64,000 nt of DNA from Colwellia sp. D2M02. GTDB taxonomy: Bacteria > Pseudomonadota > Gammaproteobacteria > Enterobacterales > Alteromonadaceae. Each line of letters begins with the position of its first letter. Within the stretch, counting starts at the first letter, position 1. The notes under the pieces were generated by a model, which was given only the letters and a program-made list of their open reading frames with translations, did no database searches and was not told the DNA's origin. Positions 14,838 to 24,803 of this stretch are shown in pieces. Both the position numbers and the translations under genes were made by a program. The stretch lies in the NCBI RefSeq assembly GCF_018860755.1, contig NZ_JAHKPW010000032.1, positions 1 through 64,000 of the forward strand. Direction: 5' to 3'.

Positions 14838-15356
14838 TTATAAAGATCGTAAATAAAGCCCTAGCTCTGATGAATAGCCCATTGACTTTGCTGTTATAAC
14901 GTTATCTTTATCTACAATGTAATAGCTTGGGTAGCCGGTAATAGCAAAAGCTTGCTTGGTTTTCTCATCACCTAACGCAATAGGAAAAGTAAGTTGATGT
15001 CGTTGTGTAAACTTCAACACTTCTTCATTACTTGTGTAATCAAGCGCTATAGCAATCACATCAACGTCCTCGTTATGCTGAAATAAGTTTTGTAAATTAC
15101 CAATACTGGCATGACAAACTTGACACCAAGGAGCAAAGAAATAAAGTACGGTAGTGTTACCTTGTGCTTGTAAAGCCACAGGTTCACCGTTTAAGGTAGA
15201 TAACATAATCGCACCACTTTCATTATGATGCTGTGCTGGTGTATTAAGTGATGTTACGGGTAAGTCGGTGTCGAGCATACTTCTTTCTCTTAATAAAGAA
15301 AGTAACTGAAATGCCAGAATAAAAATCACTAATTGAATCGCAAAACTACGTAGCAC
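14838..15356 (-). CDS. TlpA/ResA-like membrane-anchored thioredoxin
   Basis: A 172-residue protein with an N-terminal membrane anchor (about residues 5-23) and a periplasmic thioredoxin fold. The redox motif is C78-Q-V-C81 within FFAPWCQVCHAS, and a cis-proline segment ITGYPSYYIV lies near residue 135. Proteins like this reduce or shuffle disulfides outside the cytoplasm. It is divergent from the exosortase operon with a 263-base gap; a functional link is not shown. The exact redox partner cannot be told. Confidence 0.85.
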   Translation of the reverse strand: MLRSFAIQLVIFILAFQLLSLLRERSMLDTDLPVTSLNTPAQHHNESGAIMLSTLNGEPVALQAQGNTTVLYFFAPWCQVCHASIGNLQNLFQHNEDVDVIAIALDYTSNEEVLKFTQRHQLTFPIALGDEKTKQAFAITGYPSYYIVDKDNVITAKSMGYSSELGLYLRSL

Positions 15357-15619: not shown

Positions 15620-16249
15620 ATGGTCTTATCGAACAAAGTTCCACAATTAAGTCTATTCAAACACTTCTTAATATATTTGGGTTCATCACCCCTTGTTCGT
15701 AAATTAAAAGATAACAACCTAACTTTCTTTGTTGTTTTCGTCTTATGTTCCGTACTTATTCAATTAACAGTTTGGCAAATACATCAAACACCATGGTTAG
15801 CCGATAGTATTCAAACAGCACTTGCCTATGCCGCTGCAAATTTATCTCAGCTATTTTCAAGAGATGTCTTACTGAATGAAAATGAAATTATCCATTCACT
15901 ATCGCAGCGCTATATAGTCGTTGACTCACAATGTACTGCTCTCTCATTAATAGGCACTTTATTAGCTGCGATTATCGCTTTACCAATAAAATCAATATCT
16001 GCGTCAGCTTCCTCTGTGACATTTTCACAAATTGTACGTATAAAGGGATTAATATTTTTCATCAGCGCTGGTTTTATTCAAGTGCTCAATATTATACGTA
16101 TTAGTCATTTATTTTTTGAAATAAAGCACCCTATTAATAACTTTGAATTTTATCATTTATATGTTTGGCAAGGTATTAACTTCGTTACCGTCATATGCAT
16201 TTTTTATCTAATTCATCAATATGTTAAAAGGAAATTAACACTTGAATAA
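15620..16249 (+). CDS. Exosortase/archaeosortase-family transpeptidase
   Basis: A 209-residue polytopic inner-membrane protein with about five or six helices. The exosortase catalytic set is visible: C105 in VVDSQCTALSL, R160 in NIIRISH and H179 in EFYHLYVW, in the usual order and spacing. Exosortases cut a C-terminal PEP-CTERM-like signal and are thought to attach the new C-terminus to another molecule. AAGGA precedes the ATG. The next gene overlaps by 8 bases and encodes a short secreted protein with a matching C-terminal signal. No polysaccharide genes are nearby, unlike typical PEP-CTERM loci. XrtH (IPTL-CTERM-specific) is the closest type I can suggest, unverified. Confidence 0.8.
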   Translation: MVLSNKVPQLSLFKHFLIYLGSSPLVRKLKDNNLTFFVVFVLCSVLIQLTVWQIHQTPWLADSIQTALAYAAANLSQLFSRDVLLNENEIIHSLSQRYIVVDSQCTALSLIGTLLAAIIALPIKSISASASSVTFSQIVRIKGLIFFISAGFIQVLNIIRISHLFFEIKHPINNFEFYHLYVWQGINFVTVICIFYLIHQYVKRKLTLE

Positions 16250-16421
16250 GATCTCTTGGTTTTGTCTACTCTTTTGCTTACTGTATACCTTTAATGCTTT
16301 AGCTACCGGAGGTGGCGGTGGCGGCGGAACAGGCTCAAGTGCTAGCGTACCTTTTTTAACACCTAGCCTAAACTTACTTGCTGTTCTCGTTATTTATTTC
16401 ATTTATAAAAAACGTAAATGA
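16242..16421 (+). CDS. Small Gly-rich secreted protein with C-terminal sorting signal (candidate exosortase substrate)
   Basis: A 59-residue protein starting at TTG. AAGGA sits 9 bases upstream, which supports the start. Residues 1-21 form a signal peptide ending in the SPase I motif ALA. The mature part is a run of seven glycines, then TGSSAS, then VPFLTPSLN, a hydrophobic helix (LLAVLVIYFIY) and the basic tail KKRK. That final tripartite layout is that of an exosortase CTERM signal and resembles IPTL-CTERM. It overlaps the exosortase stop by 8 bases, and its stop overlaps the next start by ATGA, so the three genes are translationally coupled. It is below normal gene-calling size and uses TTG, so it is easily missed. 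Confidence 0.7.
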   Translation: MNKISWFCLLFCLLYTFNALATGGGGGGGTGSSASVPFLTPSLNLLAVLVIYFIYKKRK

Positions 16422-18130
16422 GCCATACCGATAAACCTACCGCCATTACCTCCTTATCAAATAGTCATATTGTGGAAGATAAAACGTCTGAGCAATTATC
16501 AGCGAATACATCAAAGAATAACATTAGCCCGAGTAAACAACGAAAAGATTTGTTACTTGTTTTAGTCACCGTCGCTCTATTTTATTTAGCGTTTCCCAGT
16601 GGGGGTTATGGACATTTAGCCTGGTTTATTATGATCCCTTTAATGATCGCACTTCATAATACCCAAGGTAAGTACGCTTTTATGCTCGGCTTAGTTGCCG
16701 CGACACTTGGCTGGATGTGCAGCATTTGGTGGGTAGTTGATGGCTTAGCTCAAGTCACTTTCAGTCAAAGTAATATTGTTATCCCTTTTATCTTTGGGTT
16801 TTGTGTATTATTTGCGCTGCCTTATGCCCTCGCTTGCTGGTTACACGCACGGTTTTATTGGGGAAACTCAATCAGTGGCGCATTAAAGTCAGCATTAACT
16901 TTTACCGTCATTGTTAACTACATACCTAATGTACTGCCTGGTAACCTTGCACATGCACTGTACTTAGCACCATTACACATTCAACTCCTTGATATTGGTG
17001 GTGTGCCATTGGTGTTTTTTCTTTTGCATTTTGTTAATTTTCTCTTGGCGACTGCGATTATTAATTGGCGTAAAAAAATCGACCTTAGTGTTAAGTGTAT
17101 CGCTGTAGCATTAAGTTGTTGGTTAATAAATGTTGGTTATGGTTATGTAAAAATAAATGACTTACTTGAGCCGAGTACAGAGCAACCCCCTACGCTTTCA
17201 ATAGCAATGGTGCAGCCAAATGTTGATATTTCGCTGCGTACTCGCGATGACTGGCGACAAACATTACCTAAAATTCAAGAGCTACTGGCTGGGGTAGTAA
17301 GCGCTGAGCCAACCGACTTAATTATTTTACCTGAAATGCCTGTCCCACTTTCTTATAAAAATTATCCACAAGATAAGCACGCTTTTGATGCTGTAATCAA
17401 AAATAACAACCTGTTAATTACAGCGATTGAGCCTATGTTCAACCCTATAACCAATGAAGTTCAAGGCTATTTCAATACTGTTGAGCTTATTAGTGAGCAA
17501 GCGCTTTTACAGCAATATAAAAAACAAAAACTTTTGCCCATTGGAGAATATTTACCCTTTGAAGCACAGCTACCAATATTAAGAACTTTATTTCCTAATG
17601 CTCCCAACTATATCGCGGGTAAACAAACATATACTTTAACGCTAGCCTTAGAGCAGAAAACCATTAATATTGTGCCGTTAATTTGTTATGAAGCGGTTTT
17701 TACTGAATTAGTTGCCAATAGCCTTAAAAAGAATGATCTCAACAAAGAAACTCTTGAGCCGAATAATACGGCAGCTCCCCCTAATTTTAGCGTACTTGTC
17801 AATACCGTTAATGATGCCTGGTTTGGTAACACGGCAGGTCGTGATGTGCATTTAGCTCTTGCTTTATATCGTAGTGTTGAATATAGAAAGCCACTTGTTA
17901 GAGTCACCAATAATGGTGCCAGTGGTATTATTAATCACAAAGGCGAAATTATTAAAGACTCTCAAATAAAGTCATTTACAGCGGATAGCGTGATAACACA
18001 TGTTGATTTAGTTGATATACACAGTATCTACCAGAGATTCCCTTATGGTTTTATGCTGTTAGCAATTATTTTTGTTGTTGTCGTCATTATTAACGAGCAA
18101 TATAAACGAGTTAACAAACCTCGATTTTAG
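16418..18130 (+). CDS. Apolipoprotein N-acyltransferase-like (Lnt-type) membrane nitrilase
   Basis: A 570-residue protein with seven or so membrane helices (about residues 45-240) followed by a periplasmic carbon-nitrogen hydrolase domain (about 255-530) and a final helix. The Lnt triad is intact: E306 (LPEMPVP), K369 (KQKLLPIGEYLP) and C423 (PLICYE); the accessory glutamates E377 and E425 are present. Lnt adds the third acyl chain to lipoproteins. It is about 58 residues longer than E. coli Lnt, with a hydrophilic N-terminal 45 residues and an Asn/Lys-rich insert near 435-455. It is coupled by ATGA overlap to an exosortase and its candidate substrate, not to the usual lnt neighbours (ybeX/leuS), so it may be a specialised paralogue. 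Confidence 0.8.
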   Translation: MSHTDKPTAITSLSNSHIVEDKTSEQLSANTSKNNISPSKQRKDLLLVLVTVALFYLAFPSGGYGHLAWFIMIPLMIALHNTQGKYAFMLGLVAATLGWMCSIWWVVDGLAQVTFSQSNIVIPFIFGFCVLFALPYALACWLHARFYWGNSISGALKSALTFTVIVNYIPNVLPGNLAHALYLAPLHIQLLDIGGVPLVFFLLHFVNFLLATAIINWRKKIDLSVKCIAVALSCWLINVGYGYVKINDLLEPSTEQPPTLSIAMVQPNVDISLRTRDDWRQTLPKIQELLAGVVSAEPTDLIILPEMPVPLSYKNYPQDKHAFDAVIKNNNLLITAIEPMFNPITNEVQGYFNTVELISEQALLQQYKKQKLLPIGEYLPFEAQLPILRTLFPNAPNYIAGKQTYTLTLALEQKTINIVPLICYEAVFTELVANSLKKNDLNKETLEPNNTAAPPNFSVLVNTVNDAWFGNTAGRDVHLALALYRSVEYRKPLVRVTNNGASGIINHKGEIIKDSQIKSFTADSVITHVDLVDIHSIYQRFPYGFMLLAIIFVVVVIINEQYKRVNKPRF

Positions 18131-18134
18131 CTAT

Positions 18135-18169
18135 AAAAAAGCGAATACATAAAAATGCATTCGCTTTCT
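18135..18169. terminator. Bidirectional terminator between the Lnt-like gene and serS
   Basis: A 12-bp stem with one mismatch (AAGCGAATACAT / ATGCATTCGCTT), flanked by A's on the left and T's on the right, lies between two convergent genes. Confidence 0.82.
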
Positions 18170-18196: not shown

Positions 18197-19483
<1,287 letters not shown>

Positions 19484-19561
19484 TCACATTAATCGTTGAA
19501 AAGTTATAATAATGGGTTAATTGCTGACAAGTTAAGTAATAATACATATAACTTAACTTCT

Positions 19562-19963
19562 CTATTTGGCCAGTGACGATACAATAAACATACCGAGTGC
19601 AGCTGCGCCAATACATAAAACAACATTTAAAAATATATTTAATGTTGCTTTAACGACCTCGCCTTGTTGCAATAATAACAAGGAGTCTAATGAAAATGTA
19701 GAAAAGGTGGTAAAAGCACCTAAAAAACCTATTCCGATGAGTGTTCGGTGAACACTGATATCTAAAATTTCATTCTCTATCAGTTGATAAAGTAAGCCCA
19801 TAACGAGCGATCCGGTGATATTAACCATCAATGTCGCAAAAGGGAAACCTTTTCCTAGCCAATTTAACACTAATTGGGAAATATAAAAGCGCAAACTAGC
19901 GCCACAAGCTCCGCCAATGGCTACAAAGGCGTATAAAGTAAAGTTACTAATAGCGCCGCTCAT
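19562..19963 (-). CDS. crcB: Fluoride channel FluC/CrcB
   Basis: A 133-residue protein with four membrane helices that forms dual-topology dimers exporting fluoride. The conserved [11 protein letters not shown] segment is at about residues 17-27, N48 is in the TLMVNITGS motif, and the [13 protein letters not shown] signature is at 79-91. Its start overlaps the rarA end by 17 bases, which implies coupling. No fluoride riboswitch is recognisable upstream, as expected for an in-operon gene. Confidence 0.94.
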
Positions 19964-21443
19964 GACTGTTCCTATTAAGTTGTTCTAAATATTCCAGTTT
20001 CTCTTTGAGCTGCTTTTCAAGGCCACGTTCACTGGGTTGGTAAAGCTGTGTGTATGATTTATCACCTTGCGCTAACGCTTCAGGAAAATAATTCTCACCA
20101 GCGGCAAAAGCATTGGGTTCATTGTGAGCATAGCGATACTCACTGCCATGACCTAAACCTTTGGTAATATCGCTGGTTGCATTTTTTAAATGGTTAGGTA
20201 CATCAAGTTGTGAGGTATCTTGCGCTAATCGTTTTGCTTTTTTAAAGGCATCATAAACGGCATTGCTTTTAGGTGCTAGAGCCATATAAACTGCAGCTTG
20301 CGCAATTGCTCTTTCACCTTCACTGGGACCAACACGATGATAAGTATCCCAGGCATTAACGCCAATTTGTAAAGCTCTTGGATCAGCATTACCAATATCT
20401 TCACTGGCAATGGCTAATAAGCGACGGGCAACATAAAGTGCATCACCACCGGCAGTGAGTATACGTGCATACCAATAAAGCGCAGCATCTGGACTAGAGC
20501 CACGAACCGATTTATGAAAAGCGCTAATCAAATCATAAAAAGCATCACCGCCTTTATCATAAAGTGCTATTTTACTGCCTGAAACTTGTGCTATTAGCCC
20601 TTCAGAAATAAGACACTTACCCTCGCTTGTATCAAGACTATCAACACAGTTTTCAAGCAAATTAAGTAGTCGCCTAGCATCACCGTCACTACGATTGAGT
20701 AAGCTTTGAGCTGCATCGTCACTGAGCGAAACCATTAAGTTTTGCTCGTGTTGATAAAGCGCTATGGCACGACTTAAGACTAAACGTAAATCGTCACTGG
20801 TAAGTTTTTTTAAAATATATAAACGCGCCCGTGAAAGGAGTGCTTTATTTAATTCAAAAGCTGGATTTTCAGTGGTCGCGCCAATAAAAATAATGGTGCC
20901 GTCTTCAATATGCGGTAAAAATGCATCTTGTTGAGATTTATTAAAACGGTGCACTTCGTCAACAAATAATACCGTACGGCGTTGTTGAGCATTAGCACGC
21001 ATTTTTGCACGGTCAATCGCTGCACGTATTTCTTTAACACCAGAAGTGACTGCTGAGACACGTTCAATATCGGCATCGCTATGCTGAGCAATTATCTCAG
21101 CTAAAGTCGTTTTGCCGCTGCCTGGTGGCCCCCAAAAAATTAATGAATGGCAATGACCTTGCGCTATAGCTTGAGCTAAAGGTGACTCTGGCGCTAAAAT
21201 ATGTTGCTGTCCAACATAGTCTTTGAGTGTTTTGGGGCGCATTTTAGCCGCTAATGGCATAAACCCCTGGGGCTCATCTAGCGAAGGCTCAATACCATTA
21301 ATTTTCTTGGCTTGATTACTCTCTACGCCCTCAAGTCCATGCAACATGTCTCTTTCAGATGTATCGAATAAGTCATCTTCAAATAAGCCACTTTGACTTT
21401 GCTGTTGCTTATTAATAGCGCCCTGATTATCGCTTGTCTTCAA
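19947..21443 (-). CDS. rarA: Replication-associated recombination AAA+ ATPase RarA (MgsA)
   Basis: Clamp-loader-like ATPase that acts at stalled replication forks. Walker A is GPPGSGKT (residues 105-112 from this start), Walker [11 protein letters not shown], and sensor 1 IGATTENP. I place the start at TTG 21443 because AAGGTG lies 7 bases upstream and the overlap with lolA is then only 17 bases. The open frame extends to an ATG at 21494 with no ribosome site, which would add 17 residues. The protein carries about 55 extra N-terminal residues, acidic and Ser/Gln-rich, before the conserved PLAAKMRP segment. The true start is uncertain within that region. Confidence 0.92.
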
Positions 21444-22155
21444 GTCTAACACCTTGTGGCAAGCTAAAAGAGAATAATTGTGCGTTAGGCGCATCGGTAC
21501 TATTAAAGTTACTTAGAAGTATTTGGCTTACCTGCCCTGTTGCATCTTTAAATGAAAATTCACTTAATTGCGTTGTGCTAGACTCATTGCGGCTAAAGCG
21601 TAACGATAAGCTTTTAATCTGGCTTTCTTGATTTAATGGCGTAATCACAAATTGTTCATTTTTTTGTTCAACTTGATAATTATCCCATAGCGTTTTTTCA
21701 TCACTGGTAAGTAATAATATTGGAGTATTATCAATAGCTTTTGCTAAACTATAAGCACTAGCCTGCTCGATAAATGGGTCATAAAACCACAGTGTTTCAC
21801 CATCACTAACAATAATAGTTTCATCGGGCTCAGTCGTTTGCCAATTGACTAAATTAGGCTTACTAATCGCTAAAGTGCCAGCACCTTGTTGTAATAACTC
21901 TTCACTTTCGCTAAATATTTTTTGAGTAAAGTCTGCGCTAAAATACGTTAATTCAGATAAGGTTGCCATTAATCTTGCTTTATCTTGCGCACTACGTTCG
22001 TCCGTAGTATTTAACACTTGCGTTGCCACTGACTCAATAGCTGTGTCTTTAGTTGCCGGTGTAACACTTACCTCAGCATGTACACTAAAATGACTTAATA
22101 CGGGAATGCTCAATAACGTTGCTAAACGAATTTTTTTTAAAAGTGTTGGGGACAT
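21427..22155 (-). CDS. lolA: Outer-membrane lipoprotein carrier protein LolA
   Basis: Periplasmic chaperone that carries lipoproteins from LolCDE to LolB. A signal peptide with a basic N-terminus ends at about A27 (FSVHA|EVSV). The mature protein shows the LolA pattern [33 protein letters not shown] and [16 protein letters not shown]. At 242 residues it is about 40 longer than E. coli LolA because of an extended spacer after the signal peptide. It sits between ftsK and rarA, the classic lolA location. Confidence 0.95.
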
Positions 22156-22217
22156 CTAATTAATAAACCTTCTTCAATAAACCTAAGTAGTACAAACTAT
22201 TATTTCAATTGTGTTAG

Positions 22218-24803
22218 TTAAAAGTCACGCACAGGTGGCGGCGCTAATACTTCACGGGCACCGTTATGTCCAGGTGTTGAGACTACGCCTTGTATTTCCA
22301 TTTGCTCAACAATACGTGCTGCGCGGTTATAGCCAATTCTAAATTGACGTTGCACACTTGAAATTGATACGCGGCGTTTTTCAGTCACAAACTGAATCGC
22401 TTCATCATAAAGCGCGTCAAGCTCTTCTTCTCCACCACCTTCAGCTTGCTCGCCAGGTAATAAAATATCTTGCTCATTCTCACCAGAAAGAATTTCATCT
22501 ATGTAATTAGGCTCGCCGCGAGACTGCCAGTCTTTTACAACCGCATGCACTTCATGATCGTCAATAAATGCGCCATGTACACGCGTAGGAACACCTGTGC
22601 CCGGCGGTAAGTAAAGCATATCACCCATTCCGAGTAACTGCTCAGCACCTTGTTGATCTAATATGGTACGGGAGTTTAAACCAGAAGAAACTTGAAACGC
22701 CATACGCGTTGGAATATTTGCTTTAATTAAACCCGTGATAACATCAACTGATGGGCGCTGTGTTGCTAACACCAAATGAATACCTGCAGCACGTGCTTTT
22801 TGTGCGATACGTGCAATTAACTCTTCTACTTTTTTACCAACAATCATCATCATGTCGGCAAATTCATCAACAATAACCACAATACTTGGCAGTTTCTCTA
22901 ATAACGGTGCGGTTTGGTCTAAACCGTCATTTGGTTGCCATGTAGGATCAATAATAGGTTGTCCACTTGCTTCAGCGTCACGAATTTTTTTGTTGTAACC
23001 TTTCAGGTTTCTCACCCCTAAAGCAGACATCACTTTATAGCGACGTTCCATTTCACCGACACACCAACGCAGCGCGTTAGCTGCATCTTTCATGTCAGTT
23101 ACCACTTCAGCTAATAAATGAGGAATACCTTCATAAACACTTAACTCAAGCATTTTAGGGTCGATCATAATTAAACGGACGTCTTCAGGCGTAGATTTAT
23201 ATAACAAGCTGACAATCATGGTGTTAACACCCACTGATTTACCTGAGCCTGTAGTACCTGCTACCAATAAATGTGGCATTTTACCCAAATCAACAACCAC
23301 GGGTTCACCAGCAATATCTTTACCTAACACCATAGTTAATGGCGAGGTTGCCTCTTCAAAAGCAGGACATGAAATTACTTCGCTTAGGCGAACAATTTCA
23401 CGGTGTTTATTTGGTAATTCTAAGCCGATAACCGACTTTCCTGGAATAACTTCAACAACGCGGACACTAATCGCAGATAATGCTCGTGCTAAATCTTTTG
23501 ATAAACTGGTAATTTTACTGACTTTAACACCAGGAGCTAAATCAAGTTCAAAGCGAGTAATAACTGGGCCTGGATAAACTGAAACGACCTCAGCGACAAT
23601 ATTAAAATCAAGTAACTTGGCTTCAACTAGGCGGCTCACTTGATCAAGCTCTTCTTGGTTAATTGGATTTTTTGCTTTATCGGGTCTATCTAACAAGTCA
23701 ATGGAAGGCATCCCTTGGAATTTATCTTCTTCGACCACTAAATTAACTTGACCATTGCTGTTGTCTAACTGTTGTTCAAATGTTGATGTTTTATTGGCTG
23801 TGGCTGGAGTTTTAGTAGCGGTTCTCGTTTTAGGCTCAGCCTCATCATCAGCAATATGTAACTGTTCTACGTCGGTAAATGCCGCGGCAATTTCATCTTC
23901 ACTAACATGCTCTTGTACATTCATCGCCAATGGCTCAGTTAGCAACTCATTAATATCAATAAAGGGTTCACTTTTTTCATGTGAGCGATAATCATCTGCG
24001 CTCAGTATAGTTGAATCATCATTATTATCCGCTGTACTTGAGTCAGTTTGTGTAATAAGCGGCGATTTATTTAAGCTGTTACTATCTGATGTGAAATCAT
24101 CATCTTCAGCACTGTCGGCGGTAGGGTTTTTACTATGGTCATATTGTGTACCAAAATGCTCTTTAATTAAAGCAGGTAGCGTTAACAGCCAATTAAATGA
24201 GGCAATAGTATATTGACCAACGCTATCAACAAACTTTAACCACGAAAAACCCGTTAAAAGCACAAAACCAGAGCAGGTAAATAGTAGAAATAATAAGGTA
24301 CTACCAACAAAAGAAAGATAAGGAAGTACTGCTTTACTGATTACATCCCCTAAAATACCACCGGCAGAAAAATAGAATATATCATCAAAATTCATGCTCG
24401 CTAAAGACGTAATACCAAGATAGAGCATGAAAAAACCAACAAGCTTTAAGCCTAAGGTTAAATAATCCAGCGCCATAACTTGATGAAAGCGTTGAAACAA
24501 TAACCAGCCAACAATTGCAGTAACAAAAGGTAAGGTGTAAGCAATTAAGCCAAATAAGTTTAGTAATAAATCTGATAAATAAGCCCCTACTGCCCCGCCT
24601 AAATTGCGTACAGGGGTTTGATAACCAGTTTGCGCCCAGCCGGGATCGGCGGGATCAAAACTTAATAATGCCAACACCATAAATAAAGCAAAGGCGCTAA
24701 AACATAACAAGCCAGCCTCAAGCAAGCGCTGTACACCAGAAAGTTGTTTGTTGCTGATATCGGCAACACTGTTATCACTATTTTCTACAAGTTCAGAAGA
24801 CAA
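22218..24803 (-). CDS. ftsK: DNA translocase FtsK
   Basis: Septal DNA pump that coordinates chromosome segregation with division and activates XerCD. Four or five N-terminal membrane helices (about residues 30-200) are followed by an acidic, Ser/Asp/Thr-rich linker (about 215-360). The motor has Walker [11 protein letters not shown] with K522 and Walker [14 protein letters not shown], and the C-terminal winged-helix gamma domain spans about 795-855. At 861 residues the linker is much shorter than in E. coli FtsK (1329). It lies downstream of lrp and upstream of lolA, the usual order. Confidence 0.97.

Follow-up and report, generated by a model that had tools for sequence, protein, structure and literature searches.

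The 64,000-nucleotide stretch of DNA analyzed here, from the marine bacterium Colwellia sp. D2M02 and referred to as the window, contains an operon encoding an exosortase-like protein, a 59-residue mini-protein (the mini-substrate) and a dedicated paralogue of the apolipoprotein N-acyltransferase Lnt (Lnt2). We propose, with a probability of roughly 0.57, that these genes form an exosortase system dedicated to a single substrate, a mini-protein made on ribosomes, which it would convert into a small lipopeptide. The observations behind this reading are the gene set and its co-occurrence among genomes, the intact catalytic residues, the separate clade of Lnt2, the finding of one substrate in each genome and the joint absence of Lnt2 and presence of a Cys-bearing substrate in one natural variant, genome G101. 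The chemistry of the system is deduced from protein sequences and is worded conditionally below.

The exosortase-like membrane protein (209 aa) is encoded at 15620..16249 on the forward strand and is followed, on the same strand, by the mini-substrate (59 aa, 16242..16421, with a TTG start) and by Lnt2 (570 aa, 16418..18130). The three overlapping genes described in the first-pass annotation were recovered as open reading frames (ORFs) at these positions; the first two share 8 bases and the last two share 4. Between the operon and the convergent serS gene, a 9-base inverted repeat read from the sequence (AAAGCGAAT / ATTCGCTTT, 18138..18167, no strand assigned) is a possible, weak candidate for a terminator common to both. 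A consensus scan found no terminator, and promoter-like matches were no more numerous than in shuffled sequences. The polysaccharide locus reported as missing from the surroundings was also missing from the 20 other large ORFs compared with Pfam (20 of the 33 window ORFs of at least 220 aa, with Lnt2 scanned separately). Among the neighboring genes, a TlpA/ResA-like thioredoxin-fold protein (14838-15356, reverse strand) is divergent from the operon. Convergent to it, on the reverse strand at 18197-24803, lie serS, an ORF that by eye is CrcB-like, mgsA/rarA, lolA (LolA is a carrier of lipoproteins) and ftsK.

The putative catalytic residues of the exosortase (Cys105, Arg160 and His179) are all present in the window protein and are invariant in the 14 aligned orthologues. 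With the general signature TIGR04178, the window protein scored 19.9 bits, under the cut-off of 23; it is alone in failing, as the 13 other orthologues all pass (34.4 to 50.7 bits), which supports superfamily membership, the second condition set in the first-pass annotation. None of the 14 orthologues passed XrtH (TIGR04177, cut-off 86; 32.2 to 50.3 bits, with 34.7 for the window protein) or XrtX (NF046081, cut-off 170; 24.4 to 50.4 bits). These were the top-scoring named subtypes, XrtH in nine cases and XrtX in four, with one tie, and all 14 proteins lie under the cut-off of every named subtype. Since the orthologues pass the general signature and 14/14 stay under the subtype cut-offs, the window exosortase is classified by sequence as a superfamily member outside the named subtypes. 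An AlphaFold2 model built from two rows was too poor for use (pLDDT 42.6), and no solved structure related to the exosortase by sequence was found. To our knowledge, little is firmly established about the reactions that bacterial exosortases carry out.

In the mini-substrate, TGGGGGGGTGSSASVP is flanked by two hydrophobic stretches (residues 4-20 and 38-54), in agreement with the small protein described in the first-pass annotation. A signal peptide, seven glycines, SVP, a transmembrane segment and a KKRK tail follow each other along the chain. The glycine run is encoded by mixed codons and thus is not a simple DNA repeat. All 14 mini-substrates share a common layout in which a hydrophobic start, 5 to 14 glycines and SVP (replaced by SVS in G101) precede a second hydrophobic stretch and a basic end. 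The motif, the hydrophobic stretch and the K/R-rich end of a tripartite CTERM sorting signal are likewise found in 14/14. The residue directly before the glycine run is Ala in 10/14, the remaining four having Thr, Val, Ser or Cys; judged by eye, as were all the signal peptide cleavage sites, this Ala is probably the last signal-peptide residue in most cases. The segment from the end of the presumed signal peptide to SVP contains neither Lys nor Arg in 14/14. Furthermore, a profile search yielded one strong mini-substrate in each of the 14 genomes, the next best match being at E 6e-4 or weaker. It is important to consider that this profile was built on whole mini-proteins, so that a similar tail on unlike proteins may go undetected.

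The third protein has the domain composition of an Lnt (PF20154 and PF00795, with an LNT_N domain present) and scores above the TIGR00546 cut-off of 132.9 in the two of 13 sequences scanned (183.8 bits in the window and 194.8 in L014). Glu306, Lys369 and Cys423 are all present in the 570-aa protein, together with E377, and the three are invariant in 13/13 dedicated homologues. A canonical Lnt is present in 14/14 genomes, and 13 of these carry the dedicated protein in addition. In the tree, the 13 dedicated and the 14 canonical proteins are split by a 100/100 branch, so that Lnt2 does not group with the housekeeping Lnt found in the same genomes and falls outside the canonical orthologues. The canonical FPWLxxGYxQ stretch, which we take to bear on substrate access in Escherichia coli Lnt, is replaced by LPGN[LI][AV]H[ASG]LY in 13/13 Lnt2 proteins, and the Glu-x-Leu-Arg preceding it is also replaced. 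A second, canonical lnt, which the first-pass annotation proposed to look for, is present in the window genome behind a CorC/YbeX-like gene, and the 14 canonical loci have one CorC motif nearby in every case and a second one in 12. At E<=1e-60, Lnt2 was detected in 11/330 family genomes, all of them exosortase positive, and in 1/274 class-level genomes, which is the window genome. At locus L022 (8058-9539, reverse strand), the Lnt2 gene of G034 has no clear ATG, GTG or TTG start at the expected place, and its frame is open upstream.

The exosortase profile matched 18 of 395 same-family genomes, 14 strongly (E 6.9e-53 or better, window genome included) and four weakly. These samples hold one genome per species, so that the estimate of 14/395 holds for this sample alone, and the genome searches scored part of the first-look candidates (e.g., 8/17 in the order- and family-level exosortase searches and 4/6 in the family-level Lnt2 search). 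Among 394 order-level genomes there were four matches, strong in the window genome only, and among 369 class-level genomes there were 25, the best outside the window genome reaching E 2.3e-18; a plasmid search gave no match. The conservation of the trio on which the earlier interpretation depended is found in 13/14 exosortase genomes, the fourteenth having the first two genes. A five-gene operon (exosortase, mini-substrate, Lnt2, an acyl carrier protein [ACP] and a ketoacyl synthase [KS]) occurs in 11/14 strong genomes. The window genome and G034 have the three-gene form, and G101 has a two-gene form with exosortase and mini-substrate. In 12 loci, neighboring operon genes overlap (by 41 bases or less) or lie at most 20 bases apart; this count leaves out L019 and L021, where start codons are ambiguous, uses the first gap only of L022 and includes some starts picked by hand. 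The operon sits at differing genomic locations, and the pairwise distances of the exosortase are correlated with those of Lnt2 and of canonical Lnt, as are the latter two with each other (r 0.82 to 0.89, 13 genomes), which makes vertical descent with loss as likely as horizontal transfer.

Outside the window genome, the class-level matches comprise 26 loci in 24 genomes, at E 2.3e-18 or weaker. No match to Lnt, ACP or KS was obtained by tblastn (E 0.01) in 34 distant or weak exosortase loci with 1.5-kb flanks (26 class level, three order level, four weak family loci and L013), a range that an Lnt lying farther off would escape. This tblastn search used entire loci, while an earlier blastp covered only ORFs closed within the locus. 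By eye, a protein of about 190 to 310 aa follows the exosortase in about 17/26 of the class-level loci. Ten of the 26 were scanned, with seven above the XrtH cut-off, one just under it and two closest to XrtM. Several candidates were rejected. The four weak family matches (L078 to L081, E 1.4e-9 to 2.1e-7) showed no mini-substrate in 1.5 kb under the filter used, and the three weak order-level matches lacked the operon proteins nearby by both blastp and tblastn. The G109 match (E 8e-5) overlaps a 507-aa ORF that by eye is polysaccharide flippase-like and has no profile match. In the family loci L078 and L080, a divergent exosortase is followed by a 215- or 257-aa protein, and the L078 exosortase scores 52.6 with XrtH, under the cut-off. 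Additionally, PEP-CTERM-like ends (VPEP-TM-basic, by eye) were seen near the operon in L084 (6757-7377), L085 (6615-7232) and L015 (14167-14880), the latter two in reverse strand numbering; given these proteins, the three genomes may hold another exosortase system.

The ACP and KS genes, the latter of the KAS II type, lie behind Lnt2 in 11/14 loci. L014, the single example scanned, has a PF00550 match in its ACP and beta-ketoacyl synthase domains in its KS. Across the alignments, which include 8 of the 11 sequences, neither the DSL motif of the ACP nor the Cys-His-His residues of the KS vary. At the operon loci of the window genome and of G034 (20 kb in the latter), neither gene was found. The closest KS in the window genome is 36% identical to the operon KS, and the other operon KS proteins are 60 to 83% identical to that of L014. 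Because both genes are absent at the locus in two genomes with Lnt2, we take them as accessory and dispensable for the core system.

G101 is the sole genome of the 14 without Lnt2, having the canonical Lnt only, and its 17.6-kb locus contains no detectable remnants of lnt, ks or acp (E<=1). Alone among the 14, its mini-substrate has a lipobox-like Cys before the glycine run (LFSAC, then glycines). The Cys of a lipoprotein is acylated through the Lgt, LspA and Lnt route. The simplest reading, suggestive from these sequences, is that both arrangements would end in a lipidated N-terminus. This trade-off between Cys and Lnt2 rests on 1/14 genomes, and the G101 lipobox has Phe at position -3, which is not the usual residue there. 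The exosortase was present in one of the six genus members searched, which is G101 itself, leaving the Cys variant without a replicate.

On this basis, the pathway would begin with the export of the 59-aa precursor, from which signal peptidase I would cut at an AxA-like site to leave a glycine-rich N-terminus. In the manner of Lnt, which draws on phospholipid, Lnt2 with its intact Glu-Lys-Cys site would then pick up an acyl chain and move it onto the alpha-amine of the mature N-terminus. The alpha-amine is the likely acceptor because it is the only obvious amine in the mature segment. The exosortase, through its Cys-Arg-His residues, may cut at or near SVP and so remove the membrane tail. The resulting intermediate would be hydrolyzed, or the C-terminus would be passed to an amine acceptor, possibly an amine lipid, as hypothesized for the archaeosortase ArtA and as reported for VesB, whose adduct contains glycerophosphoethanolamine. 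In most relatives, ACP and KS could tailor the acyl chain, a step for which the window operon has neither gene. Lnt uses phospholipid in the periplasm, and ACP and KS are cytosolic; the need for a cytosolic ACP/KS product to reach the periplasmic Lnt2 counts against the mechanism. Acylation by Lnt2 would fit the evidence, and no support for amidation, the alternative offered in the first-pass annotation, was found in it. The conserved trio and the second lnt, both put forward as checks in that annotation, were found; the annotation missed the ACP, the KS and the likely N-terminal amine acceptor. The full scheme, a new ribosomal lipopeptide class in which a repurposed periplasmic Lnt N-acylates an oligoglycine peptide at a non-Cys residue, using an acyl chain tailored by a dedicated ACP and KS, and the exosortase releases or anchors the peptide, is held more tentatively and would be somewhat less probable than even.

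Other explanations place the acyl group elsewhere or separate the three proteins. Lnt2, ACP and KS could make an N-acylated small lipid or amino lipid, and the exosortase would attach the mini-protein to it by the C-terminus, so that the acyl group sits on the acceptor and not on the peptide N-terminus. Such a route has precedents: exosortase relatives appear to pass substrates to lipids, ArtA substrates being reported as lipid anchored with an ethanolamine lipid as their proposed acceptor (PMC7157517), and the title of Craig 2011 connects the PEP-CTERM/exosortase system with N-acyl amino acid synthases. The presence of ACP and KS in 11/14 operons also speaks for it. However, in G101 the exosortase and mini-substrate are retained, Lnt2, ACP and KS are all missing from the vicinity and the peptide N-terminus carries a Cys, which is easier to explain if the missing step acted at that end. 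We consider the lipid-acceptor explanation unlikely, though the strongest of the competing ones.

An improbable explanation is that the proteins acylated by Lnt2 are lipoproteins at large or others of the envelope, and that the exosortase and mini-protein are only its operon neighbors. Its score above the apolipoprotein N-acyltransferase cut-off would be expected of such an enzyme, but no genome with Lnt2 and no exosortase turned up among the 330 of the family, the canonical Lnt is present in all 14 genomes and the membrane-domain motif of that Lnt is replaced in 13/13 Lnt2 proteins. Less probable again is that the mini-protein escapes exosortase processing and is a small bitopic membrane protein regulating or assisting the enzymes. 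It is indeed short and has a hydrophobic segment, and the targets of an exosortase can lie elsewhere in the genome. Nevertheless, its SVP-TM-basic layout matches CTERM signals, the XrtH locus L052 of the class search has an LPTLSEWG-tailed protein beside its exosortase and the mini-substrate profile gave no further strong match in the 14 genomes. Processing of the mini-protein into a lipopeptide is the reading that we prefer.

The gene set is of the exosortase/CTERM kind, with known enzymes in a combination for which we found no description: the literature searched, which was incomplete and had most subscription papers outside it, yielded no account of an exosortase together with an N-acyltransferase. 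The closest named exosortases are XrtH and XrtX, whose Cys, Arg and His are kept, and the L052 tail (LPTLSEWG, transmembrane segment, basic end) has a layout similar to that of the mini-substrate. Lnt2 resembles Lnt in its curated score, catalytic site and LNT_N domain; it differs in its separate clade, its occurrence in the genomes searched only together with the exosortase, the replaced FPWLxxGYxQ stretch and a predicted substrate without Cys after the signal peptide in 13/14 (a Cys in the membrane tail of G1107 aside). GlyGly-CTERM substrates of rhombosortase likewise have a Gly- and Ser-rich motif, a hydrophobic segment and a basic end. However, rhombosortase is a rhomboid serine protease, not an exosortase, its substrates are protease-sized and we know of no Lnt partner. 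The GlyGly-CTERM protein VesB is reported to be cleaved near its C-terminus and linked there to a moiety that contains glycerophosphoethanolamine (PMC6219818). The lipolanthines resemble the proposed product as ribosomal peptides bearing a long acyl chain but differ in having actinomycete producers. They contain lanthipeptide rings, use a GNAT-type acyltransferase and are not known to have an exosortase or a membrane tail. Goadvionins are one example of such acylated ribosomal peptides, in which an acyltransferase links the polyketide and peptide parts (PMC10435860, with the title of Kozakai 2020 cited there).

If the lipopeptide product is confirmed, the exosortase/Lnt2 system would be a new class. 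With one enzyme and one substrate of about 60 residues, it is small enough for expression and mass spectrometry. Furthermore, if Lnt2 acylates a non-Cys N-terminus, this would extend the range of Lnt-type enzymes as we know it and would offer a genetic route to lipidated oligoglycine peptides.
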